Shown: positions 7,916 to 31,274 of the stretch, in pieces | How the letters are laid out: each line of letters opens with the position of its first letter | Numbering within the stretch: the stretch's first letter is position 1 | Assembly (NCBI GenBank): GCA_027623325.1 | Contig: JAQBXY010000012.1 | Span: 20,500-84,499 of the forward strand | Reading direction: 5' to 3' | Length of the DNA stretch: 64,000 bases | Origin: Gemmatimonadota bacterium | Lineage (GTDB): Bacteria; Gemmatimonadota; Gemmatimonadetes; Longimicrobiales; Gaopeijiaceae | Program-made: the position numbers and the translations under genes | The notes under the pieces: model-generated | Database searches by the model: none | Told to the model about the DNA's origin: nothing | What the model saw: only the letters and a program-made list of their open reading frames with translations

Positions 7916-7934
7916 GTCTCTCATCCGAAGGGCC

Positions 7935-13419: not shown

Positions 13420-15870
13420 ATGAAGACCCTCACAGCGACGCTCGCGGCGATGGGCGCGATGCTCGTGTATTCGAGCGCCGGAACGCCGAGCCTACAGCGG
13501 GCTCTGGTCGGCTCGATCCGTGCCGTCGAGGCTGAAGTGGCAGGGGCCCCTCTCACCGACGACGACCTGATCCTCGAATACTGCGTTCGCTGCCACTCCG
13601 ATCGTCGCATGAGGGGGAATCTCTCGCTGGAGGATTTTTCCGCAGCGACGCCCCATGAGCAGGCCGAAATCGCCGAGAAGATGATCGTAAAACTCCGTGC
13701 GGGCATGATGCCTCCGCCCGGTGTGGCGCGGCCGGCAGGGGATTCTCTATTGCGATTGGTAGAGGGGCTCGAATCACGAATCGACGCTGTGGCGCATGCG
13801 TCGCCCGATCCCGGAGGGCGGACCTTCCAACGTCTGAATCAGGCGGAGTACCAGCGGTCCATCTACGATCTGCTCGGATTGCAGATCGACGCCAGCGAGT
13901 ACCTGCCTGCCGACACGAAGAGCGAGAACTTCGACAACATTGCCGACGCCCAGATGTTGTCCCCGACGCTCCTCGACGCCTATCTGAACGCCGCGGGCGA
14001 CATCAGTCGACTAGCGATCGGTGATCCGGACGCCGTTCCCAGCGCGAAGACCTATGTAGTCTCGGCGTATGGCTCGCAGACGGAGCGAGTCGAAGGCGCC
14101 CCGTTCGGGACCCGGGGAGGGAGTTCGGTCATCCACAACTTCCCCGCGGACGGTGACTACGTCTTCACCATCGTCTTCGAGCATACGACGACTGGCGCGG
14201 GCTTCGCGGGCCAACTCGCGAGGGACGAACAGGTGGAGGTCTCGATCGACGGCGAGCGGGTAGCCTTGATCGGGGTCGACTCCTGGATGACGTATTCCGA
14301 CGAGTGGGGCATCACGATGCGGAGCGAACCGATTTCGGTCGGCGCGGGGCCGCGACGGGTTACGGCCGCCTTCCTCAGGACGGCGGAGGGCCCAGCCGAC
14401 GACCTCATGTCGCCGCACGACTGGTCGCTTGCGGACCGTCATACCGGGATGGACGGGTACGGGCTCACGCTTCTCCCGCACCTGCGCGAATTCGTGATCC
14501 GTGGCCCGTATGATGTGACCGGGGTGTCGGATTACTCCGTGCGGGACCGGATTTTCACCTGTAAGCCAGAGGCGGGGGGCGACGGTCGAGCCTGTGCCCG
14601 TGACATCGTGACGAGGCTTGCCACAGCTGCGTACCGGCGGCCCTTGGAGGACCGTGACGTCAACGGACTGATGGGCTTCTACGACCTGGGCGTCGAGGAG
14701 GGGGGCTTCGAAATTGGGATCCGAACGGCACTCCAGGCGCTTCTGGCGAGCCCGCACTTCGTATTTCGATTCGAAGAATCCCCCTCGGGCGTTCGCCCCG
14801 GCGCTACCTATCGTCTGGGGGATGTCGATCTCGCTTCACGGATTTCGTTCTTCCTCTGGGGCCTGCCACCGGACGAGACGCTACGAGAGTTGGCCAACGG
14901 CGGTCGACTCTCGGAGGAGTCCGTACTCGAGGCGCAGGTTCTCCGCATGCTCGATGATGAGCGCGCGGAGGCGCTCGGTTCGCGGTTTGCGGCCCAGTGG
15001 CTCCGTCTTCAGGATCTCGACAAGGTGCACCCGGACTCCTACTGGTATCCGGACTTCGACAAGCAGCTCGCGAACTCCATGCGTCGTGAGACGGAGCTCT
15101 TCTTCACGCAGCTCGTACGCGAGGATCGGAGCGTATTCGAGCTTTATACCGCGAACTACACGTATGCCAATGAACGTCTCGCGCGTCACTATGGCATCGA
15201 CGGTGTCACGGGGGATGACTTCCAACGGGTGGTCTATCCCGATGCGACTCGCCGGGGACTTCTAGGGCACGGGAGTGTGCTGACGCTCACCTCGCACGGT
15301 GACCGGACATCGCCGGTGCTTCGAGGCAAGTGGGTGATGGAGGTGTTGATGGGCACCCCGCCGCCGCCGCCGCCCCCCGGTGTGCCCGACCTCGAGGAGA
15401 CCGAGGGTACCTCGGACGGGCGCATGCTCACCACCCGAGAACGAATGGAGCAGCATCGAGCCAATCCGACGTGCAACTCGTGCCACCGCTTCATCGACCC
15501 GATCGGGCTGGCGCTCGACAACTACGACGTGACGGGCCGGTGGCGGATCCGTGAAAACGGAATGCGGATCGATACGAGTGGCGAGCTTTATGACGGCACC
15601 CCGGTGACGAGCCCGATTGCGCTGGCGGAGGCACTCCTCAAGAGGCCGGAACCGCTGGTTCGAACCTTTACGCAGAATCTCATGGCGTACGCTCTGGGAC
15701 GTCGGGTCGAATACTCCGACCAACCGACCGTGCGGGCGATCGTGGCCGGGGCCGAGGCGCGCGACTATCGGATGTCCGCGTTCGTCCTGGGCGTCGTGAA
15801 GAGTGACGCGTTTCAGATGCAGCGAGCACTGGGGATCGTGGACGATGCACGCCCAGAATCGGATCGATGA
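13420..15870 (+). CDS. DUF1592-type multidomain protein (DUF1587/1592/1588/1585-like) with two CxxCH motifs, array copy 1
   Basis: YCVRCHSDRRMRGN and NPTCNSCHRFIDPIGLALDNYD; RTFQRLNQAEYQRSIYDLLGL; GTPPPPPPPGVPDLEET. Confidence 0.88.
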   Translation: MKTLTATLAAMGAMLVYSSAGTPSLQRALVGSIRAVEAEVAGAPLTDDDLILEYCVRCHSDRRMRGNLSLEDFSAATPHEQAEIAEKMIVKLRAGMMPPPGVARPAGDSLLRLVEGLESRIDAVAHASPDPGGRTFQRLNQAEYQRSIYDLLGLQIDASEYLPADTKSENFDNIADAQMLSPTLLDAYLNAAGDISRLAIGDPDAVPSAKTYVVSAYGSQTERVEGAPFGTRGGSSVIHNFPADGDYVFTIVFEHTTTGAGFAGQLARDEQVEVSIDGERVALIGVDSWMTYSDEWGITMRSEPISVGAGPRRVTAAFLRTAEGPADDLMSPHDWSLADRHTGMDGYGLTLLPHLREFVIRGPYDVTGVSDYSVRDRIFTCKPEAGGDGRACARDIVTRLATAAYRRPLEDRDVNGLMGFYDLGVEEGGFEIGIRTALQALLASPHFVFRFEESPSGVRPGATYRLGDVDLASRISFFLWGLPPDETLRELANGGRLSEESVLEAQVLRMLDDERAEALGSRFAAQWLRLQDLDKVHPDSYWYPDFDKQLANSMRRETELFFTQLVREDRSVFELYTANYTYANERLARHYGIDGVTGDDFQRVVYPDATRRGLLGHGSVLTLTSHGDRTSPVLRGKWVMEVLMGTPPPPPPPGVPDLEETEGTSDGRMLTTRERMEQHRANPTCNSCHRFIDPIGLALDNYDVTGRWRIRENGMRIDTSGELYDGTPVTSPIALAEALLKRPEPLVRTFTQNLMAYALGRRVEYSDQPTVRAIVAGAEARDYRMSAFVLGVVKSDAFQMQRALGIVDDARPESDR

Positions 15871-15894
15871 ATCGACAAGGACCAGCGGAGAACT

Positions 15895-17307
15895 ATGAGC
15901 TACATCACTGGTAGACATCTCGAGCGGCGCACGTTCCTCAAAGGAATGGGTGCTTCGGTCGCCCTTCCATTTCTGGACGCCATGGTACCCGCGGGCCGTC
16001 TCTCGGCCGCAAAGTCGGCAGAGGTGGGAGCCACACGGCTCGTGGCCATCGAGATGGTTCATGGAGCGGCGGGCTGCAACGAATGGGGTGCCACGCAGAA
16101 CCTCTGGGCTCCGGCCGACGTCGGTCCCGGCTTCGACCTGACGCCGAGCGCGCTCAGCCCGCTCGAGTCATGGCGGAAGCACCTGACCATCGTGAGCAAC
16201 ACCGACGCGCGTATGGCGGAGGCGTTCGAGGCGCATGAGATCGGCGGAGACCACTTCCGTTCGAGCGCGGTGTTCTTGACCCAGTCGCATCCGAAACAAA
16301 CACGTGGATCCGACGTGTACGCCGGAACGTCCTTCGATCAGATCTACGCGGGCCGTTTCGGGCAGGACACACCGATTCCCTCCATGCAGCTCTGTATCGA
16401 ACCGGTAGACCAGTCCGGCGGATGCGCCTACGGATATTCCTGCGTCTACACGGACTCGATCAGTTGGGCGTCCCCGACGGAGCCCCTTCCGATGATACGC
16501 GACCCCAGGATCGTGTTCGACATGTTATTCGGTGCGGGCGGCACCGCCGAGGAACGGTCGAGGCGCCGCCGAACCAACAGCAGCATTCTGGACTGGATCA
16601 CCGGCGAGGTCGCGCACCTGAAGCGGGAGCTGGGGCCGAACGATCTCGCTCGTTTGGACCGATATCTGGACAACGTGAGAGAGATCGAGCGCCGCATCGG
16701 TGGGATCGAAGCGCAGAATCGGACCGGTGAAGAGCGAGAGCTGCCGGGTGCTCCGGCCGGTGTCCCGGATTCCTTCGAAGATCACATGGAGTTGATGTTC
16801 GACTTGCAGGCGCTCGCCTTTGCGTCCGACGTGACGAGGGTCTTTTCGTTCAAGACGAGCCGTGATGCTTCGGGTCGTGTGTACCCCCTCAGCGGTACCG
16901 ATCGGGCGTTTCATCCCGCTTCGCACCACGGAGGAAGGGAGGAGGCGATCCTGGATTTCAACAAGATCAACCAGTACCACGTGAGCATGCTCCCCTACTT
17001 CCTCCAAAAGCTGCAAGACCTGGAGGAAGGAGACTCGAACCTGCTCGACAAGACGATGATTCTCTATGGGTCGCCGATGGCCGACGGCAATCTCCACAAC
17101 CATCGGAGGTGCCCATTTGTCATTATAGGTGGAGCCAACGGTCAGCTCGCCGGGAACACGCACCTGAAGGCGCCCGACGGGACCCCGATGGCCAACGTCA
17201 TGCTGAGCCTTTTGCACAAGCTCGGGGTTGATGATCTGGACAGTTTCGGAGACAGCACCGGCGACTACTCGCTCGACATGCCGACCTCGGTGATGCCGGC
17301 GGGCTAA
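15895..17307 (+). CDS. DUF1552 Tat-exported protein, array copy 1
   Basis: Twin-arginine ERRTFLKGMGASVALPFLDAMVP; SNTDARMAEAFEAHEIGGDHFRSSAVFLT. Confidence 0.88.
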   Translation: MSYITGRHLERRTFLKGMGASVALPFLDAMVPAGRLSAAKSAEVGATRLVAIEMVHGAAGCNEWGATQNLWAPADVGPGFDLTPSALSPLESWRKHLTIVSNTDARMAEAFEAHEIGGDHFRSSAVFLTQSHPKQTRGSDVYAGTSFDQIYAGRFGQDTPIPSMQLCIEPVDQSGGCAYGYSCVYTDSISWASPTEPLPMIRDPRIVFDMLFGAGGTAEERSRRRRTNSSILDWITGEVAHLKRELGPNDLARLDRYLDNVREIERRIGGIEAQNRTGEERELPGAPAGVPDSFEDHMELMFDLQALAFASDVTRVFSFKTSRDASGRVYPLSGTDRAFHPASHHGGREEAILDFNKINQYHVSMLPYFLQKLQDLEEGDSNLLDKTMILYGSPMADGNLHNHRRCPFVIIGGANGQLAGNTHLKAPDGTPMANVMLSLLHKLGVDDLDSFGDSTGDYSLDMPTSVMPAG

Positions 17308-17320
17308 CGGACACGAAGAG

Positions 17321-19786
17321 ATGACAGGAATGAAGACGGTCACGGTGGCGTTGGCCGCCGTTGGCGGCTTGCTCGTATACCTCGCGCAGCCGGCCGGTCT
17401 GGATTGGTCCCCGACGCCGAAGGTCGGGGCCGCGGCTTCGGTCGTGGTCGAAGCTGTGGCGCTCGACGACAATGATGTGATCCAGGAGTACTGCGTACGC
17501 TGTCACTCCGACCGTCGCCTTCGAGGCAACATGTCGCTCGAAGGCTTCGACGCCGAGAGCCCAGAACTGCACGGTGACCTGGCCGAGAAGATGATCGTCA
17601 AGCTGCGCGCGGGCATGATGCCGCCCCCGGGGGTCACCCGGCCCGTCGGCGACACACTCGACATCCTCGTGGCCGCCCTCGAGCGGCGAATGGATCGCGC
17701 GGCCGAGAGAGCGCCGAATCCGGGTGGGCGCACGTTCCAGCGGCTGAATCAGAGTGAGTACGCCGCGTCGATACGGGAGCTGCTCGGGCTCGAGATCAGT
17801 GGCGCCGACTACCTGCCGCCCGATACGAAGAGCGCGAACTTCGACAACATCGCCGACGTCCAGATGTTGTCGCCGACGCTGCTCGACGCCTATTTGAACG
17901 CCGCGGCCGCGATTAGCCGGCTGGCCGTGGGGGACCCGAGCGCTACATCGACGGAGACGCAGTACAGGATCCCCCGGTGGGCCTCTCAGACGGAGCGGGT
18001 CGAGGGGGCGCCGTATGGGACCCGAGGTGGTGTGTCCGTGGTCCACACGTTCCCTGCTGACGGCGACTACGTATTCCGATTCTCCTTCCACCACGAGACC
18101 ACTGGGACCGCAGTCGGGAACGGGAGTTCGGCGCTGAACACGACGCCCGAGAATCCGGAGCGGGTCGAGGTCTCGATCGACGGCGTCCGAGTGGCACTCC
18201 TCGACGTCGATCGTTGGATGCACGTCTCGAATCCGAACAGCGTCGAGATGCGCACCGACGCGATCGCGGTGCCCGCGGGATCCCATCGAGTGACTGCGGC
18301 GTTCATCGAGCAGGCCTCGGGACCGCTGCAGGACCTCATCTCGCCCCACGATTGGTCACTGGCGAGCACGGCCATTGCGGGGACATACGGGATCATGTCG
18401 CTACCGCATATGCGCGACTTCGTCGTCGTCGGTCCCCAGAACGTGACCGGGGTTTCGGACACTCCGATCCGCGCCGCGATCTTCACATGCCGTCCCACGA
18501 CGCCAAATGAGGAGCGGCCGTGTGCGACCTCGATCATCGAGCGGCTGGCAGCCAAGGCATTCCGGAGAAGACTCACCGCAGACGACCGAAGTGCCCTTCT
18601 GCGTTTTTACGACTACGGAGTCGAGCAAGGAGGCTTCGAGATCGGAATACGAACCGCCCTGGAGGCGATGCTCGCCAGTCCGCATTTCGTATTCCGATTC
18701 GAGGAAGCGCCCGCGGGGGCCCAACCAGGTCGCTCATACCCGATCAACGACGAAGACCTCGCGTCACGACTCTCATTCTTCCTGTGGGGCTTGCCTCCGG
18801 ACGAGGAGTTGCTCGACCTGGCGGCGCGAGACGCGCTCTCGGGCGACGATGAGCTCGAGCGACAGGTCCGCCGGATGCTGGCCGATCCTCGCTCGGAAGC
18901 GCTGGGGCCGCGATTCGCCGCCCAATGGCTGAGGCTTCAGGATTTGGACAAGGTGCACCCGGACGTGCGGCTCGAGCCCGACTTCCATCAACAGCTGGCC
19001 GACGCCATGCTCCGGGAGACCGAGCTCTTCTTCACGAGTGCGGTCCGTGAAGACCGACCGATGTTTGAGTTGTACACGGCCGACTACACCTATCTGAACG
19101 AGCGCCTGGCCCGACACTACGGAATCGAGGGAGTAACCGGCGACGAGTTTCGCCGCGTCGAATACCCGAATGAAAACCGCCGCGGCGTACTCGGGCACGC
19201 GAGCATCCTCACGCTGACTTCACACGCCGGCCGCACGTCGCCGGTACTGCGGGGCAAGTGGGTCATGGAGGTGATGATGGGGACGCCGCCGCCGCCGCCG
19301 CCGCCCGGGGTGCCTGCGCTCGAGGAGACCGAGGAAGCGGACGCAGGCCGGGTGCTCACCACGCGGGAACGCATGGAGATCCACCGAGAGAATCCTACGT
19401 GCAACGCGTGCCACCGCTTCATGGATCCGATCGGACTCGCTCTGGACAGCTACGACATCACCGGGAAGTGGCGGATACGTGAAAACGGGAATCCGCTCGA
19501 CACGCAGGGCGAACTGTACGACGGGACGCCGATTACGAGTCCGATTGCGCTGCAACAGGCTCTACTCCAACGCCCGATCCCTCTGGTCCGGACCTTCACG
19601 ACCAATCTGATGGCCTATGCGTTGGGCCGGAGAGTCGAGTACTACGATCAGCCGACGATTCGGCGGATCGTGCAGGACGCTGAGCGTGAGGGGTATCGCA
19701 TGTCGGCGTTCTTTGTGGGTGTGGTGAAGAGCGACGCGTTCCGAATGCAGAGTGTGCCCGCGGTCGTTCAAGACCCGATGAACTGA
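17321..19786 (+). CDS. DUF1592-type multidomain protein with two CxxCH motifs, array copy 2
   Basis: YCVRCHSDRRLRGN and NPTCNACHRFMDPIGLALDSYD; clearly paralogous to 13420..15870. Confidence 0.88.
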   Translation: MTGMKTVTVALAAVGGLLVYLAQPAGLDWSPTPKVGAAASVVVEAVALDDNDVIQEYCVRCHSDRRLRGNMSLEGFDAESPELHGDLAEKMIVKLRAGMMPPPGVTRPVGDTLDILVAALERRMDRAAERAPNPGGRTFQRLNQSEYAASIRELLGLEISGADYLPPDTKSANFDNIADVQMLSPTLLDAYLNAAAAISRLAVGDPSATSTETQYRIPRWASQTERVEGAPYGTRGGVSVVHTFPADGDYVFRFSFHHETTGTAVGNGSSALNTTPENPERVEVSIDGVRVALLDVDRWMHVSNPNSVEMRTDAIAVPAGSHRVTAAFIEQASGPLQDLISPHDWSLASTAIAGTYGIMSLPHMRDFVVVGPQNVTGVSDTPIRAAIFTCRPTTPNEERPCATSIIERLAAKAFRRRLTADDRSALLRFYDYGVEQGGFEIGIRTALEAMLASPHFVFRFEEAPAGAQPGRSYPINDEDLASRLSFFLWGLPPDEELLDLAARDALSGDDELERQVRRMLADPRSEALGPRFAAQWLRLQDLDKVHPDVRLEPDFHQQLADAMLRETELFFTSAVREDRPMFELYTADYTYLNERLARHYGIEGVTGDEFRRVEYPNENRRGVLGHASILTLTSHAGRTSPVLRGKWVMEVMMGTPPPPPPPGVPALEETEEADAGRVLTTRERMEIHRENPTCNACHRFMDPIGLALDSYDITGKWRIRENGNPLDTQGELYDGTPITSPIALQQALLQRPIPLVRTFTTNLMAYALGRRVEYYDQPTIRRIVQDAEREGYRMSAFFVGVVKSDAFRMQSVPAVVQDPMN

Positions 19787-19820
19787 CGAAGCCTCCTACG
19801 GGGCCTGGAGATCGAAGGAC

Positions 19821-21236
19821 ATGGAATTCATCACTGGAAAGCAGTTGCCGCGGCGCACCTTCCTGCGGGGAATGGGCGCGAGCGTGGCCCTACCTCTCTT
19901 GGACGCGATGGTCCCAGCAGGTCGCTTGTGCGCTTCGGGTGCGCTCGACGAGCTGGACCCAACGCGCCTCGTTGCCATCGAGCTCGTCCACGGGGCAGCC
20001 GGGAGCAACGAATGGGGCGCGACTCAGAATCTCTGGTCTCCGGCCGACGTCGGCGCGGACTTCGATCTCACGCCCAGCGCGTTGTTACCGCTCGATCCGT
20101 GGCGAAAGCACCTCACCATCATCAGCAATACTGACGTGCGAATGGCTGAGGCCTTCCAGCCTCCCGAAATTGGGGGCGATCACTTCCGGTCGAGCGCCGT
20201 TTTCCTGACGCAGCAACATCCCAAGCAGACCGAGAGTTCCGACGTATACGTCGGTGCCTCACTCGATCAGATCTATGCGGGGCGCTTCGGCCAGAACACT
20301 CCGATCCCGTCGATGCAGCTCTGTATCGAGAACGTGGACCAAGCGGGCGGCTGTGCGTACGGATATTCCTGCGTCTACACCGACTCGATCAGCTGGGCGT
20401 CGCCGACCGAGCCGCTTCCGATGATCCGAGATCCGCGTGTCGCGTTCGATCTACTCTTCGGCGCCGGTGGAACACCGGAAGAGCGGGCGCGCCGACGCAG
20501 GACGAGCAGCAGCATCTTGGACTGGATCATCGAAGATATGGCGCGCATGCGTCGGGAGCTGGGTCCGAACGACTACGCACGACTCGACCGCTATCTCGAT
20601 AACGTCCGTGAGATCGAACGGCGCATTCAAGGCGTAGAAGCCCAAAATAGAAGTGGGGATGAGCGCGAACTTCCCGGCGCGCCGGCGGGTGTTCCTGATT
20701 CCTTCACGGAACACATGCATCTGATGTTCGACCTCCAGGCGCTTGCGTTCGCTTCCGATATGACTCGGGTCTTCTCGTTCAAGACGGGGCGGGACGCTTC
20801 GTCTCGTGTCTATCCGGAGAGCGGCACGGAAACGCCCTTCCACCCGGCGTCGCATCACGGGGGTCGTGAGGCAGCGATCCTCGACTTCGCCGTCATCAAC
20901 AAGTTCCACGTCAGCATGCTTCCGTATTTCATGCAGAAGCTGCAGGACATCGACGAGGGGGGCACCGACCTCCTCGAGAAGACGATGATCATCTTCGGAT
21001 CGCCGATGGCTGACGGCAACGTTCACAACCATAGACGTGCGCCCCTGATCGTTCTGGGGGGTGCCAACGGGAAGCTCGAGGGTAACCTCCATCTGAAGGC
21101 CCCGGATGGCACTCCGATGGCGAACGCCATGCTGTCTCTCCTCCACAAGCTCGGCCACGACGATCTGGAGAGTTTCGGAGACAGTACCGGCGAGTTTTCG
21201 CTCGCTATGCCAACCACCACATCGCCGGCCGGTTGA
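19821..21236 (+). CDS. DUF1552 Tat-exported protein, array copy 2
   Basis: PRRTFLRGMGASVALPLLDAMVPAGR; paralogous to 15895..17307. Confidence 0.88.
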   Translation: MEFITGKQLPRRTFLRGMGASVALPLLDAMVPAGRLCASGALDELDPTRLVAIELVHGAAGSNEWGATQNLWSPADVGADFDLTPSALLPLDPWRKHLTIISNTDVRMAEAFQPPEIGGDHFRSSAVFLTQQHPKQTESSDVYVGASLDQIYAGRFGQNTPIPSMQLCIENVDQAGGCAYGYSCVYTDSISWASPTEPLPMIRDPRVAFDLLFGAGGTPEERARRRRTSSSILDWIIEDMARMRRELGPNDYARLDRYLDNVREIERRIQGVEAQNRSGDERELPGAPAGVPDSFTEHMHLMFDLQALAFASDMTRVFSFKTGRDASSRVYPESGTETPFHPASHHGGREAAILDFAVINKFHVSMLPYFMQKLQDIDEGGTDLLEKTMIIFGSPMADGNVHNHRRAPLIVLGGANGKLEGNLHLKAPDGTPMANAMLSLLHKLGHDDLESFGDSTGEFSLAMPTTTSPAG

Positions 21237-21260
21237 GCCGACGGATACCGAGTGCAGAGA

Positions 21261-23147
21261 ATGAGTAACCGACTTTGTGCGAACGCCGGTGTGGCGCTGC
21301 TTGTGACGATGCTCATGACCGCGTCCTCACCTCCGGAGTCTCCGGTGTCGGACGCCGCCATGCGCAACGATGTCGAGCGGGTGAGGTCCCTGCTCCTGGG
21401 AGGCGCAGATGCAAACGCGGCTCAGGGAGATGGCATGACCGCGCTGCATTGGGCAGCTGAAAACAGCAATGCCGAGTTGGCCGACATGCTCGTGTACGCC
21501 GGAGCGAACGTCGCAGGGGTTACCCGGCTCGGTGAGTTCACGCCGCTCCATCTCGCGGCCAAGAAGAGCGCAGCGGGAGTGGTCGATGTGCTTCTCGCGG
21601 CGGGGGCCGATCCGGAGGCCGTCACATCGACGGGAGGAGTCGCGCCGCTTTACTTTGCTTCAGGTGCCGGAAGTGTGCCCATCGTCCGGGCGCTCATCGC
21701 ACACGGTGCGAGCGTCGATGTGCGTGAGGCCGCGTGGGGTCAGACGCCTCTCATGTTTGCCGCCGCCGCGGGCCGTGTGGACGTCTTGAACGCCCTCTTG
21801 AGCGCGGGCGCCGACCCGTCCATCAACGCTCGGGTGATGGACATGGACCAGCGGGAGAAAGAGGATCGAGCTGATCGTCAGCGTCAGGAACAAATCGCCA
21901 CCGAGATCAGGGCTGCGCAGGAAGGTACCCCTGCCGCGAGGGGTGGCAGGGGAGGAGGTCAACGCGGCGGACCGCCCCAAGCGGGTCAAGGCCGCGGTGG
22001 CGCGCCGCCTGCGACGGCGGGGCAGGGAGCGCCGGCTGGAGGAGCGCGGGTAGGAGACGCCCGGCCGGCGGGGCCGAGCCGTGAAGAGCTGGATCTCCAA
22101 CTGCGCGATCGGGTGCCGTCGTCTCGGTTCTCGCACGCTCAGCTGATCGGCGGCTACGGCGGACTGACGGCGCTGCACCTTGCGGCTCGCGACGGGCAGA
22201 TCGGTGCGGCGATGGCGCTTCTCGACGGCGGCGCCGACATCGACCAGGTGACGACAGGAGATCACACGACCCCGTTGCTCATGGCCACGATCAACGGACA
22301 TTTCGATCTGGCCCAGATGCTCTTCGAGCGTGGCGCGGACCCGAATATCACGAGTGACGCGAACGCGACGCCGCTCTACACGACGCTCAATACCCAATGG
22401 ATTCCGAAGTCGCGGCATCCCCAGCCATCAGACTACATGCAGCAGGAGGTCACGTATCTCGACCTCATGAAGACCTTCCTTGACGCGGGGGTCGACGTCA
22501 ACGCCCGCCTCACGAAACAACTCTGGTTTACGACGTTCGGGGACGATTATCTCCGCATCGATCGCATGGGAGCGACCGCATTTTGGCGAGCCGCCTACGC
22601 GCTCGATCTTCCCGCCATGAGGCTTCTGATCGAGTACGGCGCCGACCCGAACATCCCGACCATGAAGACCGCCGGCCGAAATTTTGGCCAGGATGCGGGT
22701 GGCCCGCCTCGAGGTGGTGGTGATGAGTCGGGAGGCGAGGATCCTTCTGGCCTACCGCCGGTGCCCGTTGGGGGACCCGGTGCATGGCCCATTCACGCGG
22801 CTTCTGGTATCGGCTACGGGGAGGGCTTCGCGGCCAATATCCACCGGGTCGTTCCCGATGGCTGGCTACCGGCGATCAGGTATCTGATCGAGGAACTGGG
22901 AGCCGACGTAAACGCTCGCGATCACAATGGCTACACGGCAATGCATCATGCGGCCGCGCGGGGTGACGACGCATTGATCCGGTATCTCGTGGAGCGGGGC
23001 GGCGACGTCACGGTTGTCGGACGGCGGGGACAAACGACGGTGGATATGGCGAACGGCCCGGTCCAGCGAATCAGCCCATTCCCGTCCACGATTTCACTGC
23101 TCGAGAGCCTTGGCGCAAAGAACAACCACAATTGCGTGGCGTGCTAG
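21261..23147 (+). CDS. secreted ankyrin-repeat protein with C-terminal CVAC, array copy 2
   Basis: Multiple ANK repeats (GMTALHWAAENSNAELADMLVYAGANV etc.); Gly/Arg/Pro-rich linker; ends GAKNNHNCVAC*. Confidence 0.85.
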   Translation: MSNRLCANAGVALLVTMLMTASSPPESPVSDAAMRNDVERVRSLLLGGADANAAQGDGMTALHWAAENSNAELADMLVYAGANVAGVTRLGEFTPLHLAAKKSAAGVVDVLLAAGADPEAVTSTGGVAPLYFASGAGSVPIVRALIAHGASVDVREAAWGQTPLMFAAAAGRVDVLNALLSAGADPSINARVMDMDQREKEDRADRQRQEQIATEIRAAQEGTPAARGGRGGGQRGGPPQAGQGRGGAPPATAGQGAPAGGARVGDARPAGPSREELDLQLRDRVPSSRFSHAQLIGGYGGLTALHLAARDGQIGAAMALLDGGADIDQVTTGDHTTPLLMATINGHFDLAQMLFERGADPNITSDANATPLYTTLNTQWIPKSRHPQPSDYMQQEVTYLDLMKTFLDAGVDVNARLTKQLWFTTFGDDYLRIDRMGATAFWRAAYALDLPAMRLLIEYGADPNIPTMKTAGRNFGQDAGGPPRGGGDESGGEDPSGLPPVPVGGPGAWPIHAASGIGYGEGFAANIHRVVPDGWLPAIRYLIEELGADVNARDHNGYTAMHHAAARGDDALIRYLVERGGDVTVVGRRGQTTVDMANGPVQRISPFPSTISLLESLGAKNNHNCVAC

Positions 23148-23551
23148 GGTAGCCCCACGGCCACGGGCGGTTGGTCGGCCGTCCCCTGCGTGGCGAGGGT
23201 CGCCAGAATCTCGTCGAACATCGCTCGCACCTCGCCGTTGAGGCTGATCGTGAGCGTGATCTCGTCGTACTCTTCCTGTGTCATTTCCTGCTCGGCGAGC
23301 ACTTTGGCCACTTGGGCGACCAGCTCCTCACGAGCCCGCCGGCGCCCGTCCTCATCATGGACCCGGCCCACCTTCCCATGGAAATCGTCTCGAGCTGTCG
23401 TCAGGCCGACGTGAGCTTTCGCGAACTGTGTCAGTCGCTCTCGGTCCAGCTCTGCCTCTTGGGCCTGCACCGTGCTCGGAAGCAGCGCGCCCATCACCGC
23501 AGCAAGCGCGAGGATGGTTCCCCCAGCCACGACTGGTCTAAAACTCTTCAT
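23144..23551 (-). CDS. secreted DUF4168-like small protein
   Basis: Signal peptide; FAKAHVGLTTARDDF...VAQVAKVLAEQEMTQEEYDEITLTI; stop overlaps the ankyrin gene stop (CTAG). Confidence 0.6.
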   Translation of the reverse strand: MKSFRPVVAGGTILALAAVMGALLPSTVQAQEAELDRERLTQFAKAHVGLTTARDDFHGKVGRVHDEDGRRRAREELVAQVAKVLAEQEMTQEEYDEITLTISLNGEVRAMFDEILATLATQGTADQPPVAVGLP

Positions 23552-23686
23552 CGACCTTCCTTGGAAATGCGACCCGCGTTCTTGAGCGGATCCCGGTACT
23601 CTTCGCGGGTATCACAGTTGCCAGAGGTTCGATGCACTTCATACAGTTCACCGAACCGAGAATGACCCCACGATCAGGGTACCATC

Positions 23687-23932
23687 ATACCTATCTACGA
23701 ATATTCCTGCCAAGGTTGTGGACACGCATTTGAGGCGCTCGTGCGTGGTGCGGAGAAACCGCTCTGCCCGAAATGCGACAGCGGCGATTTGGAACGACAC
23801 TTTTCTCTCCCCACGGTCCAGTCGAGCGGGACCCGTGCCATGTCGATGCGGGCGGCCAAGAAGCGCGATCAAAGGCAGGGCAACGAGCGCATGCATACAC
23901 AAAGGGAATACGAGCTCAATCACGACGACTGA
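23687..23932 (+). CDS. FmdB family zinc-ribbon protein (non-canonical start)
   Basis: ATA CCT ATC TAC GAA TAT... = (M)PIYEYSCQGCGHAFEALVRGAEKPLCPKCDSGDLERHF...; no ATG/GTG/TTG between the in-frame upstream TGA (23663) and PIYEY. Confidence 0.7.
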   Translation: MPIYEYSCQGCGHAFEALVRGAEKPLCPKCDSGDLERHFSLPTVQSSGTRAMSMRAAKKRDQRQGNERMHTQREYELNHDD

Positions 23933-24004
23933 GCCCTGATTTCTCTAGCCGGCGTTTCATGGGGCTCGTATACTGATGATCCGGGCACGCACAACCTCAA
24001 CGAA

Positions 24005-24021
24005 ACCCCTCACTGAGGGGT
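24005..24021. promoter_or_regulatory. inverted repeat ACCCCTCA-C-TGAGGGGT upstream of array copy 3
   Basis: Perfect 8-bp arms, 1-nt centre, 48 nt before the ATG at 24070. Confidence 0.35.
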
Positions 24022-24069
24022 CTATTGGGATGTGGACCTCCGAACACCAGACGACGGGATCAGCATAGG

Positions 24070-26514
24070 ATGAAGACGCTCAGCGCGGCCATGGCAGCCT
24101 TCGGGACCGTCCTGGTCTATGCCGGTGCGGCCAGCGGGCCGATACCCTTGATCTCGTCGCCCACCCCCCGGGCGTCGACCTCCTCGACGGAGATCACCTG
24201 GAGTGCCGAGTCGGACAACGCGGTCATCCAGGAGTATTGTGTACGCTGCCACAGCGATCGCCGGTTGCGGGGCAATTTGTCGCTGGAAGCGTTCGATGCC
24301 GATGCGCCGCACGAGAACGGTGACCTCACCGAGAAGATAATCGTCAAGCTGAGGGCCGGCATGATGCCACCCCCCGGCGTGGCCCGACCCGCGGGGGATA
24401 CACTCCTCCTTCTGGTCGAGTCTCTCGAACGACGGGTCGACGAGGTCGCGAGACGGAACCCGAACCCGGGTAATCGGACGTTCCAGCGCCTCAATCAGGC
24501 CGAATACGCACGCTCGGTGCGGGACCTTCTGGGGCTGGAGATCGACCCGAGCAGTCTGCTCCCGCTGGACACGAAGAGTGCCAACTTCGACAACATTGCC
24601 GATGTCCAAATGCTGTCGCCGACGCTGCTCGACGCATACCTCAACGCGGCTGCGACCATCAGTCGGTTGGCGGTCGGAGACCCCGACGCGAGTCCGAGTT
24701 CTACGACCTACACGAACTCGGGCTATGCGTCGCAATGGGAACGTGCCGATGGAGCCCCCTTCGGGACCCGCGGCGGAATTTCCGTGACACACAATTTCGT
24801 GGCCGATGGAGAGTATGAATTCCACCTGGCGTTCGAGCATACGACCACGGGTGGATATTACGGGGGTGTGACGCGGGGCGAGCAGATCGAGATTTCGATC
24901 GATGGCGATCGAGTCGCGTTGATCGAAATGGACCGGTGGATGAGCGTCGCTGACCCCAACGGCGTCAACCAGCGGTCTGAGCCCATTTTCGTGCGCGCCG
25001 GGCCTCACCGCGTCAGCGCCGTGTTCTTGAAGGCGAGCGATGGGCCGATCGACGACGTTCTTTCGCCGCACGATTGGTCTCTCTCCGATCGCCAGATCGG
25101 TGTCAGCGGGTACGGGATTACTTCTTTCGCGCACCTCAAGGACATGGTTGTCGCGGGTCCCGCCAACGCCACTGGCGTCTCGGAAACGCCGAGTCGGCAA
25201 CGAATCTTCACCTGCCGTCCCACGAGCGCCGCCGAGGAGCGACCCTGCGCGCGACAGATCGTTTCGCAGCTGGGACCGCGGGCCTTCCGTCGACCTCTCA
25301 CAGACGACGACGAAGCCGCCCTGATGCGCTTTTATGAGTACGGCGTAGAAGAAGGCGGTTTCGAAATCGGAGTGCGGACCGTGGTCGAGGCCATGCTCGC
25401 CAGCCCCGACTTCGTGTTCCGCTTCGAAGAGGCGCCGAGGGGTGTCGAGGTCGGGCAAAACTATCGCATCAGGGACGTCGACCTCGCGTCGCGCCTCTCT
25501 TTCTTCATTTGGGGTCTCCCTCCGGACCAGCAGCTGATGGAAGTGGCCACTTCGGGCCGACTTTCTCGCGAGGATGTCCTGGAGCAACAGGTCGCGCGAA
25601 TGATCGCGGATCCGCGGTCTGAGGCACTCTCGACCCGGTTTGCGGCGCAGTGGTTGCGTCTCGACGACCTGGACAAGGTCCACCCGGATCGTCTGATGTT
25701 CCCGGACTTCCACCAGAAGCTCGCCGCCGACCTACGTCGGGAAACGGAGACCTTCTTTGGGAGTCTCGTGCGCGAGGATGCCAACGTCTTCGATCTCTAC
25801 ACGGCCGACTACTCGTACATGAACGAGCGAGTCGCGAAGCACTACGGCATCGACGGAGTCGTCGGCGACGAGTTTCGCCGCGTCGCGTACCCGGACGAGA
25901 CCCGACGAGGATTGATCGGCCACGCCAGCATTCTGACGTTGACTTCGCACGCCGGACGCACCTCGCCCGTCCTCCGGGGCAAGTGGATCATGGAGGTTAT
26001 CATGGGCACGCCACCGCCACCGCCTCCCCCGGGAGTGCCGACGCTCGAGGAAACCTCGGACGTTTCGGACGGACGGATGCTGACGACGCGGGAGCGCATG
26101 GAGCAGCATCGGGAGAACCCGACCTGCAACGCCTGCCACAGGTTCATGGACCCCATCGGGCTCGCGCTCGATCGCTACGACGTGACGGGTCAGTGGCGCA
26201 TCCGCGAGAACGGGATGCCGCTGGATACGAACGGCGAATTGTACGACGGTACGCCTATTACGAGCCCCGCGGAGTTGAATGCGGCGCTCGTCGCGAGGCC
26301 GATCCCACTCGTGAGGACGTTCACGCAGAATCTCATGGCCTACGCGCTGGGTCGCCGTGTCGAGTACTACGATCAACCGACGATTCGCGCGATCGTGCGG
26401 GAGGCTGAGAAGAACGACTATCGGATGTCGTCGTTCATTCTGAACGTTGTAAAGAGTGACGCATTCCAAATGCAGAGGGCAGGGGCGGTCGCGGACGCGA
26501 CGTCCCAACACTGA
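24070..26514 (+). CDS. DUF1592-type multidomain protein with two CxxCH motifs, array copy 3
   Basis: YCVRCHSDRRLRGN and NPTCNACHRFMDPIGLALDRYD; paralogous to copies 1 and 2. Confidence 0.88.
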   Translation: MKTLSAAMAAFGTVLVYAGAASGPIPLISSPTPRASTSSTEITWSAESDNAVIQEYCVRCHSDRRLRGNLSLEAFDADAPHENGDLTEKIIVKLRAGMMPPPGVARPAGDTLLLLVESLERRVDEVARRNPNPGNRTFQRLNQAEYARSVRDLLGLEIDPSSLLPLDTKSANFDNIADVQMLSPTLLDAYLNAAATISRLAVGDPDASPSSTTYTNSGYASQWERADGAPFGTRGGISVTHNFVADGEYEFHLAFEHTTTGGYYGGVTRGEQIEISIDGDRVALIEMDRWMSVADPNGVNQRSEPIFVRAGPHRVSAVFLKASDGPIDDVLSPHDWSLSDRQIGVSGYGITSFAHLKDMVVAGPANATGVSETPSRQRIFTCRPTSAAEERPCARQIVSQLGPRAFRRPLTDDDEAALMRFYEYGVEEGGFEIGVRTVVEAMLASPDFVFRFEEAPRGVEVGQNYRIRDVDLASRLSFFIWGLPPDQQLMEVATSGRLSREDVLEQQVARMIADPRSEALSTRFAAQWLRLDDLDKVHPDRLMFPDFHQKLAADLRRETETFFGSLVREDANVFDLYTADYSYMNERVAKHYGIDGVVGDEFRRVAYPDETRRGLIGHASILTLTSHAGRTSPVLRGKWIMEVIMGTPPPPPPPGVPTLEETSDVSDGRMLTTRERMEQHRENPTCNACHRFMDPIGLALDRYDVTGQWRIRENGMPLDTNGELYDGTPITSPAELNAALVARPIPLVRTFTQNLMAYALGRRVEYYDQPTIRAIVREAEKNDYRMSSFILNVVKSDAFQMQRAGAVADATSQH

Positions 26515-26562
26515 GACTGACGGTACGAGATCCAGGCGACCAGCCTGAGGAGATCGACGGAC

Positions 26563-27978
26563 ATGCACTTTATTACCGGAAAGCACCTCGAGCGACGGAC
26601 CTTCATTCGGGGAATGGGAGCCTCACTGGCGCTGCCGTTCTTGGACGCGATGGTGCCTGCGGGGAGGCTCTCGGCTGCCAAGGCCGCCGAGGTCGATCCG
26701 ACTCGCCTCGTAGCGATCGAGATGGTGCATGGTGCCGCGGGTAGCAACGAGTGGGGCGCTACCCAGAACCTGTGGGCACCCGCCGCGGTCGGCCGTGACT
26801 TCGATCTGTCGCCCAGCGCGCTCCTCCCCCTCGATCCGTGGCGTAAGTATCTGACCATCGTGAGTAACACCGATGTTCGGATGGCTGAAGCGTTCCAGGC
26901 CCCGGAGATCGGGGGTGACCACTTTCGCTCCAGCGCGGTGTTCCTGACCCAACAGCATCCCAAGCAGACCGAGGGTTCGGATGTCTATGTAGGCACGTCG
27001 CTCGATCAGCTGTACGCGCAGCGTTTCGGTCAGGACACTCCGGTTCCCTCCATGCAGTTGTGTATTGAGAACATCAATCAGTCCGGGGGCTGTGCCTACG
27101 GATACACCTGCGTGTACACCGATTCGATTTCCTGGGCGTCGCCGACGGAGCCGCTCCCCGTCATCCGCGATCCGCGGGTGGCTTTCGAGCAGTTGTTCGG
27201 TGCAGGTGGCACCGCGGATGAGCGCGCGCTTCGTCGGCGGACGTCCGCGTCCATCCTCGACTGGGTGTCGGGCCGCGTCGCTGAGTTGCAGCGGGAACTC
27301 GGACCGAACGATCGAGATCGTCTGGACCGTTACCTGCAGAATGTCCGGGAGTTGGAGCGCCGAATTCAGATGGTGGAGGCGCAGAATGCGAGTGGTGAGG
27401 AGCGAGAGTTGCCGTCCGCTCCCGCCGGCGTTCCAGATTCGTTCGAAGAGCACGTGCGGCTCATGTTCGACCTTCAGGCGTTGGCCTTCGCGTCGGATAC
27501 GACCCGTGTATTCTCCTTCAAGATGGGTCGCGATTCGTCCGCCCGGGTCTTCCCCGAGAGCGGAACGGACAAGCCGTTCCATCCGGCCTCGCACCATGGC
27601 GGGCGTGAAGAGGCAGTGCTCGACTTCTACCTGCTCAACAAGTACCACGTGAGTATGCTTCCGTACTTCCTGGAGAAGCTCGACAGCCTCCAGGAAGGTG
27701 ATGCGACGCTGCTCGACAAGACCCTGATCATGTACGGTTCGCCCATGGCGGACGGCAACCTGCACAATCATCGCCGGGCCCCGTTGTTCTTGGCGGGAGG
27801 GGCGAACGGGCACCTGGAGGGCAATCTTCACTTGAAGGCGCCCGACGGTACACCCATGGCCAACGTCATGCTGTCGGTCATGCACAAGCTTGGTCTCGAC
27901 GACGTCGAGAGCTTCGGGGATAGCACCGGCGACTTTCCGTTGACGATGCCGAACACGTCTGCAACGCCCGCCGGCTGA
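26563..27978 (+). CDS. DUF1552 Tat-exported protein, array copy 3
   Basis: ERRTFIRGMGASLALPFLDAMVPAGR; paralogous to copies 1 and 2. Confidence 0.88.
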   Translation: MHFITGKHLERRTFIRGMGASLALPFLDAMVPAGRLSAAKAAEVDPTRLVAIEMVHGAAGSNEWGATQNLWAPAAVGRDFDLSPSALLPLDPWRKYLTIVSNTDVRMAEAFQAPEIGGDHFRSSAVFLTQQHPKQTEGSDVYVGTSLDQLYAQRFGQDTPVPSMQLCIENINQSGGCAYGYTCVYTDSISWASPTEPLPVIRDPRVAFEQLFGAGGTADERALRRRTSASILDWVSGRVAELQRELGPNDRDRLDRYLQNVRELERRIQMVEAQNASGEERELPSAPAGVPDSFEEHVRLMFDLQALAFASDTTRVFSFKMGRDSSARVFPESGTDKPFHPASHHGGREEAVLDFYLLNKYHVSMLPYFLEKLDSLQEGDATLLDKTLIMYGSPMADGNLHNHRRAPLFLAGGANGHLEGNLHLKAPDGTPMANVMLSVMHKLGLDDVESFGDSTGDFPLTMPNTSATPAG

Positions 27979-27989
27979 GGGGAAACAAG

Positions 27990-29843
27990 ATGAGGCGCAA
28001 CGAGAATTCCCTGCGAGTCAACGTGATCCCGGCACTCTTCGCTACCATGCTCCTCTGGGCTTCGATCCCCAGTGAATCTCCGGTGGCAGATGCCGCCATG
28101 CGGGGTGACGTGGCGGTAGTGCGGGCGTTACTGCAGTCGGGATCCGACGTGAACGCTGCGCAGGGCGACGGAATGACGGCTCTGCATTGGGCAGCTGAAA
28201 CGGGCGATGACGAACTCGCGCGTATGGTCGTGCACGCCGGTGCGAACCTCGAGGCTGTGACGCGTCTAGGAGACTACACGCCGCTTCACCTCGCTGCGCG
28301 CGGTGGCCGCGCCGTCGTGGTGAAGACGCTTCTCGACGGGGGCGCCGACGCATCCGCGCAGACGTCGACCGGGGCGGTCACGCCGCTTCATTTTGGGGCC
28401 GCGTCCGGGAGTCTCGATGTGGTGAACGCTTTGTTGGCGCGGGGAGCCGCGGTCGACGCGCGTGAAACCTCGCGGGGACAGACCCCCTTGATGTTCGCTT
28501 CGGCTTCGGGGCGGGCGACCGTGGTTCGGGCGCTCCTGGCGGCGGGTGCCGATGCGAATCTGCAGACGCTCGTGGTGGATATCCCGGCTCGAGAGCGCGA
28601 GGATCGTGCTGCTGGACAGGTGCGCGACAGGGTCATCCAAGCGTTCCGCGGCGAGATCCCGTCGGGCACCTCATGGCAGCCCACGCCGGCCCAAGTCCAG
28701 ACGGCCGTGCGGACCGCGAACAGTGCGCGCGTTCAGGGTGCGACACCGGGGCCATCGCAGCGACGCGACGAGCCCGCTCCGGACCCCGATCTCGGCGACG
28801 TGCCCGTGAGTTCCGCGGGGCGTGCTCCGGGCGCGTATAGCAACTCCTACTCGGATCTGGTCTATGCGGAAGGCGGCCTGTCCGCGCTCCACTATGCCGT
28901 TCGTGAGGGAGAGGCCGCGACCGCATTCGCGCTGCTCGACGGGGGTGCGGATATTGATCTCGTAACGGCGGGCGACCACACGAGCCCGATGCTCATGGCG
29001 GCTGTGAACGGGCACTTCGACCTTGTGGTGGGCCTCCTCGAGCGCGGGGGCGATCCCAATATCGGTAGTCACGCGGGGACGACACCGCTGTATGCGGTCA
29101 TCAACACCTACTGGGCGCCGAAGGCGCGGTACCCGCAGCAGCAGGCGTACCAGCAGCAGGCCGCTACTCATCTGGACGTAATGACGGCGCTCCTTGATGG
29201 GGGCGCCGATCCGAACGTACGTCTGACGAAGCACCTCTGGTTCATGGAGTACACCTTCGCTCAGTTGGACGTGGACACACGAGGCTCCACGCCGTTCTGG
29301 CGTGCCGCGTACGCCCTCGACCTTCCGGCCATGCGCCTCTTGATGGCACATGGCGCTGACCCGTCGATTCCCACGATGAAGGCTCCGGCGCGACGTTTCA
29401 ATCCCGATGGGCCTGGCCTAAGGGATGACGTGATGGACCCCTCCGGGCTTCCGCCGGTGGACCAGGGCGGACCGGATGTCTACCCGATCCACGCGGCGAC
29501 CGGGCATGCCTACGGGACAGGCTTTGCCGGCGTGTCGCACCGGCATGCGCCTGACGCGTGGCTACCTGCGCTTCGATACCTCGTCGAGGAGCTCGGGGCG
29601 GATGTGAACGCACGTGATGCGAACGGATTCGCTCCCATTCATTGGGCCGCCTCACGGGGAGACAACGAAATGATCCGTTACCTCGTCGAGAAGGGAGCCG
29701 ACGCCACCGTCGTGAGCCGTCGGGGGAACACCACGGCCGATATGGCGAATGGGCCGGTGCAGCGCATCAGTCCGTTTCCTGAGACGATTGCGCTGCTCGA
29801 GAGCCTCGGATCCAAGAACAACAACAACTGCGTGTCGTGCTGA
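27990..29843 (+). CDS. secreted ankyrin-repeat protein with C-terminal CVSC, array copy 3
   Basis: ANK repeats (GMTALHWAAETGDDELARMVVHAGANL etc.); ends GSKNNNNCVSC*; paralogous to 21261..23147. Confidence 0.85.
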   Translation: MRRNENSLRVNVIPALFATMLLWASIPSESPVADAAMRGDVAVVRALLQSGSDVNAAQGDGMTALHWAAETGDDELARMVVHAGANLEAVTRLGDYTPLHLAARGGRAVVVKTLLDGGADASAQTSTGAVTPLHFGAASGSLDVVNALLARGAAVDARETSRGQTPLMFASASGRATVVRALLAAGADANLQTLVVDIPAREREDRAAGQVRDRVIQAFRGEIPSGTSWQPTPAQVQTAVRTANSARVQGATPGPSQRRDEPAPDPDLGDVPVSSAGRAPGAYSNSYSDLVYAEGGLSALHYAVREGEAATAFALLDGGADIDLVTAGDHTSPMLMAAVNGHFDLVVGLLERGGDPNIGSHAGTTPLYAVINTYWAPKARYPQQQAYQQQAATHLDVMTALLDGGADPNVRLTKHLWFMEYTFAQLDVDTRGSTPFWRAAYALDLPAMRLLMAHGADPSIPTMKAPARRFNPDGPGLRDDVMDPSGLPPVDQGGPDVYPIHAATGHAYGTGFAGVSHRHAPDAWLPALRYLVEELGADVNARDANGFAPIHWAASRGDNEMIRYLVEKGADATVVSRRGNTTADMANGPVQRISPFPETIALLESLGSKNNNNCVSC

Positions 29844-29858: not shown

Positions 29859-30590
29859 CTAGCCTCCCGAACGCTCCATTGCACGAAGCACATTGAGATG
29901 GTAGGTCGCCTGAGCGAGGCCTGACTCCGCCTCGTGGTATCCGATCCTACCGTCTCCGTCGGCGTCGCGGCCGTAGGCCATGGCTCGAACGAGATCCGAG
30001 AGCCTGTCGACTAGTCGGTGCGCCTGCTGGGGCGTGGTGGCGCGTTGCACGCTGCGGGCCAGAGCGATCGCCGCCTCGGCGTGCTGGAGCGCGCCCGACG
30101 CCCCCCCCTTCGCTAGATCGACGTGAAGGCGCACGGCCGGTGGGATCTCCGACTCGGCTGCTACGGCGTCGAGGTGGAAGAGCATCGCCTGGGCCGAGCG
30201 CCTTACGCCGTACCCGAGGCCGAATCCGTTCCCGACCTCCGCCGGATCGATGGCGTGGAGGACGTGGGACATGCTCCGGATCATGTTGCCGAGATCCGTA
30301 GTGTCGCGGCCGGCTAACCGAACGTGGTCGGCGGCGATCGCGGCCTCGGCCATGCCTGTCTCGATGAGGCCCCAACCACCGGGCGTGTCGCCGAAGGCGT
30401 CCGTCAGAAAGGCCAGACGGTCTGCAATCTCGGCGGGGATGGGCACACCCCGGAGTCTCGCGTCGAGCATCGACGGCTCTTGAGAGGTTGTCGAGTCGGG
30501 CTCTTGGACTGGATCCGGGAGTTGTGACGCGGCCGCCAACGGTGCCAGAAACGGAAGCGTCCAGAAGATCAGGCGAACAGGGTTTGGCAT
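29859..30590 (-). CDS. secreted protein with EF-hand-like C-terminal motif, paralog A
   Basis: Signal peptide; DADGDGRIGYHEAESGLAQATYHLNVL; similar to the neighbouring ORF. Confidence 0.6.
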   Translation of the reverse strand: MPNPVRLIFWTLPFLAPLAAASQLPDPVQEPDSTTSQEPSMLDARLRGVPIPAEIADRLAFLTDAFGDTPGGWGLIETGMAEAAIAADHVRLAGRDTTDLGNMIRSMSHVLHAIDPAEVGNGFGLGYGVRRSAQAMLFHLDAVAAESEIPPAVRLHVDLAKGGASGALQHAEAAIALARSVQRATTPQQAHRLVDRLSDLVRAMAYGRDADGDGRIGYHEAESGLAQATYHLNVLRAMERSGG

Positions 30591-30611: not shown

Positions 30612-31274
30612 TCAGCCTCCGAGTCCCTCACCCCGCTTGAGGAGACCCAGGTGTTGGGTCGCCTGTGCCAGACCACCTTCACTCTCCTGCCACCCCGTCC
30701 GTCCGTCGCCGTCCGCGTCGACCCCTTCGAGGATCGTGCGGGTCAGCGTCGTCAACTCGGTCAGCATCTCTGCTGCGGCCGAAGCTTCGGTCGCTCTCTG
30801 GACCCGCTTCGCTACCCTCACGGCGGCCTCGGCGTTGCTGAGGGCGTGGGCCGCAGCCGTTGCGACGTGAATCGCGTGGGTCTTTACACCCTCGGAGGCT
30901 CCATCCGATGCGGCTGCAAGTTCGATATGCCGTGCAGCGCCCGTCGCGGCAGCGACGACACCGTAGCCGAGGCCCGGTCCGGCAGCGACTTCCGCGGGGT
31001 CCAAGGCGTGTAGTACATGCGCCATGTGCCGCTTCATGGCTTCCAGGTCGGCAGGGTCCCGACCGGCGAGAGTGGCGTGCTGATGGGCGATCTCCGCCTC
31101 GGCGACCGCGGTCGGCAGCAGCCCCCGACTCTCAGGAGTATTCCGGAAAGAATCGGCGACATGACCGACGTGGGTGTGGACCGGGTTCGTCTCCTGGGCG
31201 CTGACGGGGCCGACGAGGAACAGGCTGGTCAGCGCGAGCCCGAAAGCGCTGCGATGGATGGTCGTGGAAGGCAT
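30612..31274 (-). CDS. secreted protein with EF-hand-like C-terminal motif, paralog B
   Basis: Signal peptide (SVSAQE); DADGDGRTGWQESEGGLAQATQHLGLL; shares AGRDPADLEAMKRHMAHVLHALDPAEV block with paralog A. Confidence 0.6.
   Translation of the reverse strand: MPSTTIHRSAFGLALTSLFLVGPVSAQETNPVHTHVGHVADSFRNTPESRGLLPTAVAEAEIAHQHATLAGRDPADLEAMKRHMAHVLHALDPAEVAAGPGLGYGVVAAATGAARHIELAAASDGASEGVKTHAIHVATAAAHALSNAEAAVRVAKRVQRATEASAAAEMLTELTTLTRTILEGVDADGDGRTGWQESEGGLAQATQHLGLLKRGEGLGG

Follow-up and report, generated by a model that had tools for sequence, protein, structure and literature searches.

A tandem array of DUF1592, DUF1552 and ankyrin genes

We analysed a 64,000-nucleotide stretch of DNA (hereafter, the window) from a Gemmatimonadota bacterium of the family Gaopeijiaceae (assembly GCA_027623325.1, contig JAQBXY010000012.1, positions 20,500 to 84,499), which carries a tandem array of genes for DUF1592-type, DUF1552 and ankyrin-repeat proteins. 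Open reading frame (ORF) listing, motif counts and Pfam scans of the window place eight genes on the + strand at 13420-29843, arranged as unit A (DUF1592-DUF1552, 13420-17307), unit B (DUF1592-DUF1552-ankyrin, 17321-23147) and unit C (DUF1592-DUF1552-ankyrin, 24070-29843). A first-pass annotation, made from the sequence alone, had described these three consecutive same-strand units, and the ORFs and Pfam matches confirm them. Its motif assignments also hold: every DUF1592 protein contains two CxxCH motifs and no more, YCVRCH towards the N terminus and CNSCH or CNACH towards the C terminus, and every DUF1552 protein opens with a twin-arginine motif (LERRTFLKG, LPRRTFLRG and LERRTFIRG).

Unit A comprises A1 (13420-15870), a DUF1592-type (PSCyt/PSD) protein with matches to PSD3, PSD5, PSD4, PSCyt3, PSD2 and PSCyt1 and with CxxCH at residues 55 and 685, and A2 (15895-17307), a DUF1552 (HXXSHH) protein with a twin-arginine N terminus (PF07586, E 2.7e-81). 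In unit B, the DUF1592-type protein B1 (17321-19786), recognized by Pfam and its two CxxCH motifs, is followed by the DUF1552 protein B2 (19821-21236; PF07586) and by B3 (21252-23147), an exported ankyrin-repeat protein matched by Pfam Ank families, which ends in NNHNCVAC and starts at either GTG 21252 or ATG 21261. Unit C repeats this order with C1 (24070-26514; two CxxCH), C2 (26563-27978; twin-arginine N terminus; PF07586, E 4.9e-82) and C3 (27990-29843), again an exported protein with Ank families, ending in NNNNCVSC. The C1 ORF opens at 24025, where there is a TTG, but comparison with the paralogues makes ATG 24070 its most likely start. Intergenic gaps are 13 to 34 bp from unit A through unit B and 11 to 48 bp within unit C. 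Identity among the paralogues of the array is 65-67% for DUF1592, 79% for DUF1552 and 54-55% for the ankyrin proteins, low enough that these are diverged copies and not assembly duplicates.

Age and divergence of the three copies

Maximum-likelihood analysis of 128 DUF1552 proteins places the A, B and C proteins of the window with their positional counterparts in separate clades, with Shimodaira-Hasegawa-like approximate likelihood ratio test (SH-aLRT) support of 98 for clade A (7 members), 100 for clade B (9 members) and 99 for clade C (10 members). Clade C branched off before the split between the sisters A and B (support 90). As A, B and C each form an orthologous clade of their own, the copies are old; on the strength of the same clades we reject passive duplication and recent gene conversion of the copies. 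The exact array is syntenic in at least three other genomes (L040, L043 and L044) and is found in part at four more (L039, L041, L048 and L050), where contigs end. Given the clade history, and since unit-A orthologues have no ankyrin gene either, its absence from unit A dates far back in the A lineage and is most simply explained by loss.

Divergence is correlated among the three proteins (Mantel r 0.90, 0.89 and 0.89 over 36 complete units, with none of 2000 permutations as high); much of this is expected from shared ancestry alone, and it argues against frequent partner swapping. Divergence between the copies is concentrated in one part of DUF1592, region 206-375, where identity is 51-59% between paralogues versus 76-84% between orthologues, the widest gap of any domain. 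Columns that are invariant within each orthologue group and different between groups, which we count as fixed differences, number 18 of 162 in this insert and 14 of 590 in the rest of DUF1592 (Fisher p = 1.2e-5). Their concentration in an insert that resembles a carbohydrate-binding module (CBM) supports functional differentiation of the copies, as judged from sequence. The proposal in the first-pass annotation that the copies are retained and differentiated agrees with both the separate clades and the concentration of divergence in one domain. We also checked the contrary outcome that it had named, unrelated acquisitions with no co-occurrence of the families elsewhere, and found instead that the clades are orthologous and the triad is common elsewhere.

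The ankyrin protein as a conserved third component

DUF1552 is encoded in 148 of the 399 genomes of a phylum sample and in 90 of the 126 genomes of the same GTDB family, with 1 to 13 copies per genome within the family; those relatives that have names are Gemmatimonadota metagenome-assembled genomes (MAGs). The host genome (3.35 Mb) has six DUF1552 genes, three in the array and three elsewhere, of which two lie in full triads (L007 and L008) and the third (L009) on a contig that stops inside an ankyrin-like frame. Gene order was read from DNA, and a DUF1552 gene was taken to have room downstream when at least 1 kb followed it. At the loci from named genomes, an ankyrin gene directly follows DUF1552 in 85 of the 90 genes with room; four of the five exceptions, all unit-A orthologues, lead into the next DUF1592 gene, and one has a broken frame. 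When one locus per genome of the same family is considered, the count is 21 of 27 with room, the six exceptions being the most divergent DUF1552 types (L010, L011, L012, L013, L014 and L015), which are paired with DUF1592 and have no co-directional ankyrin gene adjoining. Elsewhere in the class, outside this family, the order DUF1592-DUF1552-ankyrin is seen at 18/18 sampled loci with room. The three genes form a set that is conserved across Gemmatimonadota, and the ankyrin linkage first noticed in the window is real and phylum-wide. At one locus (L109, 9962-11428), the DUF1552 gene of a MAG is split between two frames, by either a frameshift or an assembly error.

By sequence inspection, the ankyrin protein shows a hydrophobic signal at the N terminus, together with two blocks of repeats and a variable linker. 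Its last residues contain the motif N-[NS]-x-x-C-x-x-C in 74 of 75 full-length homologues; the CxxC makes up the very last four residues in 62 of these 75 proteins, and 54 have no further cysteine. Alignment rows cut from loci stop one codon early and were not used for these tail counts. At the DNA level, a pattern that covers the motif and its stop codon matches in 57 of the 126 family genomes, through many synonymous codons, while the reversed control has no match. Because varied synonymous codons encode the motif and the control is empty, selection on the protein appears to maintain it. With no His following it, the terminal CxxC is not a standard c-type haem site; it may instead form a disulfide, bind metal or take part in thiol exchange. 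The sole homologue without a terminal CxxC (L101, 3848-5869) lies beside a DUF1552 protein on a long branch, a possible functional shift. A search of NCBIfam returned only ankyrin-effector names, far below cut-off.

Ankyrin genes that accompany haem enzymes have been described: AnkB of Pseudomonas is periplasmic and needed for KatB activity, Leptospira has an ank-katE operon, and Cj1386 of Campylobacter takes part in haem trafficking to KatA (PMC7567364, PMC11442138). The array resembles these systems in setting an ankyrin gene beside a putative haem-protein gene, and AnkB and Leptospira KatE are periplasmic. It differs from the AnkB type in that the partners are DUF1592 and DUF1552 and not catalase, and the ankyrin protein has two repeat blocks and the terminal NNxxCxxC. 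Haem in the neighbouring protein is predicted from CxxCH only. For the ankyrin protein of the triad, the roles of scaffold and maturation factor are about equally likely.

Predicted features of the DUF1592 and DUF1552 proteins

A1, B1 and C1 all score above Pfam cut-offs for PSD3-PSD5-PSD4-PSCyt3-PSD2, in that order; A1 and C1 reach PSCyt1 at or close to its cut-off, and in B1 it is not called. The two CxxCH motifs sit in the PSCyt1 and PSCyt3 regions, and all of their Cys and His residues, together with C387 and C398, are invariant in 41 DUF1592 homologues. Covalent haem is predicted at both motifs, and the host genome encodes cytochrome-c-assembly (CcmC/CcmF-type, PF01578) and TatC genes. 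In the structure model of B1 (mean predicted local distance difference test [pLDDT] score, 80), region 206-375 forms a beta-sandwich whose local matches in the PDB include CBM35, CBM36 and CBM6-type modules at modest E values (2e-2 and up), and it may be a substrate-recognition domain. Sequence searches of the PDB with DUF1592 and DUF1552, both single and profile, returned nothing credible.

PF07586 matches all three DUF1552 proteins with E values of about 1e-81. Across 67 DUF1552 sequences, H121, H341, S344, H345, H346, H402, H424, C178 and C184 are invariant, as is the twin-arginine RR; E54 and D398 are not. The B2 model, built on the 67-sequence alignment, has a mean pLDDT of 83.5, and in a Foldseek comparison with the PDB all 29 of its 29 matches with E below 1e-3 belong to the sulfatase/alkaline-phosphatase superfamily (best, 2.9e-5), carrageenan sulfatases being the best matches. 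This makes an alkaline-phosphatase/sulfatase fold class a credible prediction for DUF1552. H121 stands nine residues before T130, and in the sulfatase motif C-x-P-S-R-x(4)-T-G the catalytic Cys stands nine before Thr; because the spacing is equal, His121 apparently occupies the place of the catalytic Cys. The surrounding histidine-rich pocket would probably bind metal: among candidate ligands of a two-metal site, His341, His345, His346, His402 and His424 are invariant, whereas E54 and D398 vary. DUF1552 is thus like the superfamily in its predicted fold and Asp/His-rich conserved residues, whereas the His at the nucleophile place (by spacing), the twin-arginine motif, the invariant CxxxxxC and the constant position beside DUF1592 set it apart.

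Relatives outside Gemmatimonadota

The first-pass annotation had given the DUF1592-DUF1552 pairing as known from planctomycete-type genomes, which is correct and too narrow: besides Gemmatimonadota, a plasmid search found the pair in Planctomyces, Chondrinema, Pseudoalteromonas, Novosphingobium and Sphingobium. The PSCyt3-PSD genes of planctomycetes and Verrucomicrobia show the same Pfam string, the CxxCH motifs and an adjoining secreted family of unknown function, and a link to carbohydrates was suggested there (PMC5615132); to this pair, Gemmatimonadota add a constant ankyrin gene and an ancient tandem array. A plasmid of Novosphingobium sp. KACC 22771 (L114), a record almost without annotation, has DUF1592-DUF1552-ankyrin in the same order, and the exported ankyrin protein directly after the pair (9274-10608) is without the CxxC tail.

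The pair is present on 12 Sphingobium plasmids. In Sphingobium herbicidovorans MH, it is followed by genes for cytochrome c', cytochrome b561 and a short-chain dehydrogenase/reductase (SDR). On one flank are genes for a 3-ketosteroid 9-alpha-hydroxylase-type oxygenase (KshA_C, E 7.5e-58), an extradiol-dioxygenase-like protein and a flavoprotein; on the other are a TonB receptor gene and genes of glycoside hydrolase (GH) families in the order GH78-GH106-GH3, families that have been identified as saponin hydrolases (PMC10653915). In TomTYG71 and TomTYG65, the same pair lies beside genes for acyl-CoA dehydrogenases, hot-dog-fold proteins, a CoA ligase and a KshA-like oxygenase. Tomatine is degraded by S. 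herbicidovorans and by isolates from tomatine soil, and the main text of that study mentions neither the DUFs nor the cytochromes (PMC10653915). The Sphingobium cluster shares with the window the DUF1592-DUF1552 order and has genes for electron carriers and a TonB receptor in linkage with it; it differs in having one CxxCH, no ankyrin gene and a location in saponin/steroid catabolic regions. Plasmid loci with DUF1592-DUF1552-cytochrome c'-cytochrome b561 in such regions are L121 (8980-39415), L119 and L142.

PSCyt/PSD genes are multicopy in planctomycetes and their relatives, with 41 genes per genome for two PSCyt/PSD domains in Rhodopirellula (PMC2754498), and a function for them is still lacking. 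In the open-access literature, where absence is weak evidence, DUF1552 is mentioned in just two papers, and neither joins it with DUF1592 or ankyrin. The pairing of DUF1592 with DUF1552 was known before, as an uncharacterised one; what is new is its extension to a triad with ankyrin, the motif at the ankyrin C terminus, the array of differentiated copies and the apparently altered active site. Three results narrow the question of function: the constant ankyrin component, the apparent change of active site in DUF1552, whose predicted fold is that of a known catalytic class, and the presence of the pair in steroid-saponin regions of Sphingobium. Since the Sphingobium strains that carry the pair are cultivable and have already been assayed, its function is open to direct test.

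Proposed function and alternatives

The pattern of conserved gene content and order is solid, and from it we infer, tentatively and with a little less than even confidence, that units A, B and C are ancient paralogous copies of a redox module that depends on haem, is exported and acts on bulky substrates. DUF1592 would carry a c-type haem at each of its ends, two in all, and recognise the substrate through its CBM-like beta-sandwich insert. DUF1552 would be folded before export by the twin-arginine translocation (Tat) pathway and would place a histidine at the nucleophile position within a His-rich, probably metal-binding pocket; it could form the catalytic site jointly with DUF1592, or donate electrons to DUF1592 or accept them. 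The ankyrin protein, which is exported and has an N-N-x-x-C-x-x-C tail, would hold the partners together or mature them. Such a module might oxidise, or reductively activate oxygen against, a bulky glycoside, polysaccharide or steroid/terpenoid conjugate that enters the periplasm by a TonB-type receptor, with electrons exchanged with the respiratory chain via c and b cytochromes. Copies A, B and C probably serve different substrates, because they differ mainly in the recognition domain. The substrate may be either a carbohydrate, which the CBM-like insert, SusC/SusD neighbours and an earlier study (PMC5615132) would favour, or a steroid/terpenoid glycoside, to which the Sphingobium context points. 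The interpretation in the first-pass annotation, a periplasmic redox complex with an ankyrin scaffold, is as a whole partly supported.

Several points weigh against a redox module of this kind. The searchable literature holds no biochemical test of any family member. The DUF1592 model has no whole-protein match to solved structures in a PDB fold search, the best E values being weak (3.5e-3 and above), and TM-scores for the DUF1552 matches are low, at about 0.4, so that the superposition is loose; nucleophile and metal positions in DUF1552 were mapped by hand from motif spacing. The window itself points to no substrate: a Pfam scan of its flanks found AMP-binding proteins, SSF symporters, a TonB plug fragment, tyrosyl-tRNA synthetase and FtsX permeases, and no obvious substrate pathway. 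SusC/SusD-type genes lie near many triad units, a frequency with no background rate to set against it, and such genes are common in Gemmatimonadota. Finally, the Sphingobium pairs lack the N-terminal haem motif and the ankyrin gene and are only 23-32% identical to the window proteins, which makes them a lead on chemistry and not proof of the window substrate.

The ankyrin protein could be a haem or metal maturation factor and not a scaffold, loading or protecting the neighbouring haemoprotein via its terminal CxxC. A near-invariant NNxxCxxC (74/75) that usually holds the only cysteines is easier to reconcile with chemistry at a metal, haem or thiol than with scaffolding alone, and there are precedents in which an ankyrin gene shares an operon with the gene of an exported or haem enzyme (PMC7567364, PMC11442138). 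We nevertheless consider this somewhat unlikely, as unit A and its orthologues keep intact haem motifs without an ankyrin gene (although a neighbouring ankyrin protein could act in trans), the ankyrin partners in Novosphingobium and at L122 are without the tail, and a CxxC lacking His is not a c-type haem site. Quite unlikely is a mainly hydrolytic module, in which DUF1552 would be an atypical sulfatase/phosphatase-like hydrolase of envelope or algal polysaccharide and DUF1592 a carbohydrate-binding surface partner with haems of secondary importance. It would account for carrageenan sulfatases as top fold matches, for the CBM-like insert, for the SusC/SusD neighbours and for the PSCyt genes found near sulfatases in Verrucomicrobia (PMC5615132), but it sits poorly with an invariant His at the sulfatase nucleophile place and the absence of CxPSR (by hand mapping), with two CxxCH motifs invariant in 41 homologues, and with the cytochromes c' and b561 that accompany the Sphingobium relatives.

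DUF1592 might also supply electrons to separate copper or oxygenase enzymes, with DUF1552 and the ankyrin protein only docking it, a role like that proposed for Cbp2D/Cbp2E of Cellvibrio with lytic polysaccharide monooxygenases (LPMOs). Cbp2D of Cellvibrio japonicus is exported and combines a PSD3 (DUF1587) domain with c-type haem domains and a CBM (PMC8981238, PMC12542752), whereas Cbp2D/Cbp2E have another domain string, no reported DUF1552 or ankyrin partner, and a link to LPMOs and cellulose. We hold this to be very unlikely, since DUF1552 is a constant partner in every lineage examined and the recurrent neighbours that we scanned included no LPMO-like gene, no genome-wide LPMO search having been made. 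That the array is a passive tandem amplification without functional meaning is barely credible: DUF1552 copy number does vary widely within the family (1 to 13 per genome), but the separate A, B and C clades, the conserved motifs, the synteny in several genomes and the concentration of divergence in one domain already contradict it. The redox module could be taken further, as a hitherto unrecognised kind of exported oxidoreductase coupled to haem. In it, a protein of alkaline-phosphatase fold, with His in place of the nucleophile and a metal or redox pocket, would have been adapted to work together with a dihaem PSD protein and with an ankyrin protein whose terminal CxxC is active in redox or metal chemistry; the tandem copies would differ in the recognition domain, and the sphingomonad version would work in steroidal saponin/sapogenin breakdown. 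We regard this fuller proposal as doubtful.

Neighbouring genes

Units B and C are separated by a gene on the - strand (23144-23551) for a DUF4168-like exported protein of 135 aa (PF13767, E 2e-4, below cut-off), which is convergent with B3, overlaps its last bases and interrupts the array. Because of this opposite-strand gene, the array is probably two transcription units. A promoter and terminator scan showed no enrichment over shuffled sequence, and we therefore claim no operon boundary from it. DUF4168-like homologues adjoin triad units at 19 other loci. The first-pass annotation included neither this gene nor the CxxC that is conserved at the C terminus of the ankyrin proteins.

At five loci (L083, L090, L094, L095 and L099, at about 5500-9900), SusC/SusD-type genes lie upstream of DUF1552-ankyrin units without a recognised adjoining DUF1592 gene, and DUF1592 is found downstream. 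Immediately after unit C, two tandem paralogous genes on the - strand (29859-30590 and 30612-31274) encode exported proteins with D-x-D-x-D-G motifs and no Pfam match; they are syntenic downstream of unit C at L040, L043, L044, L048, L050 and L052. Farther along the window, two adjoining genes on the + strand (39053-41797 and 42214-44949) encode MacB/FtsX-type permeases.

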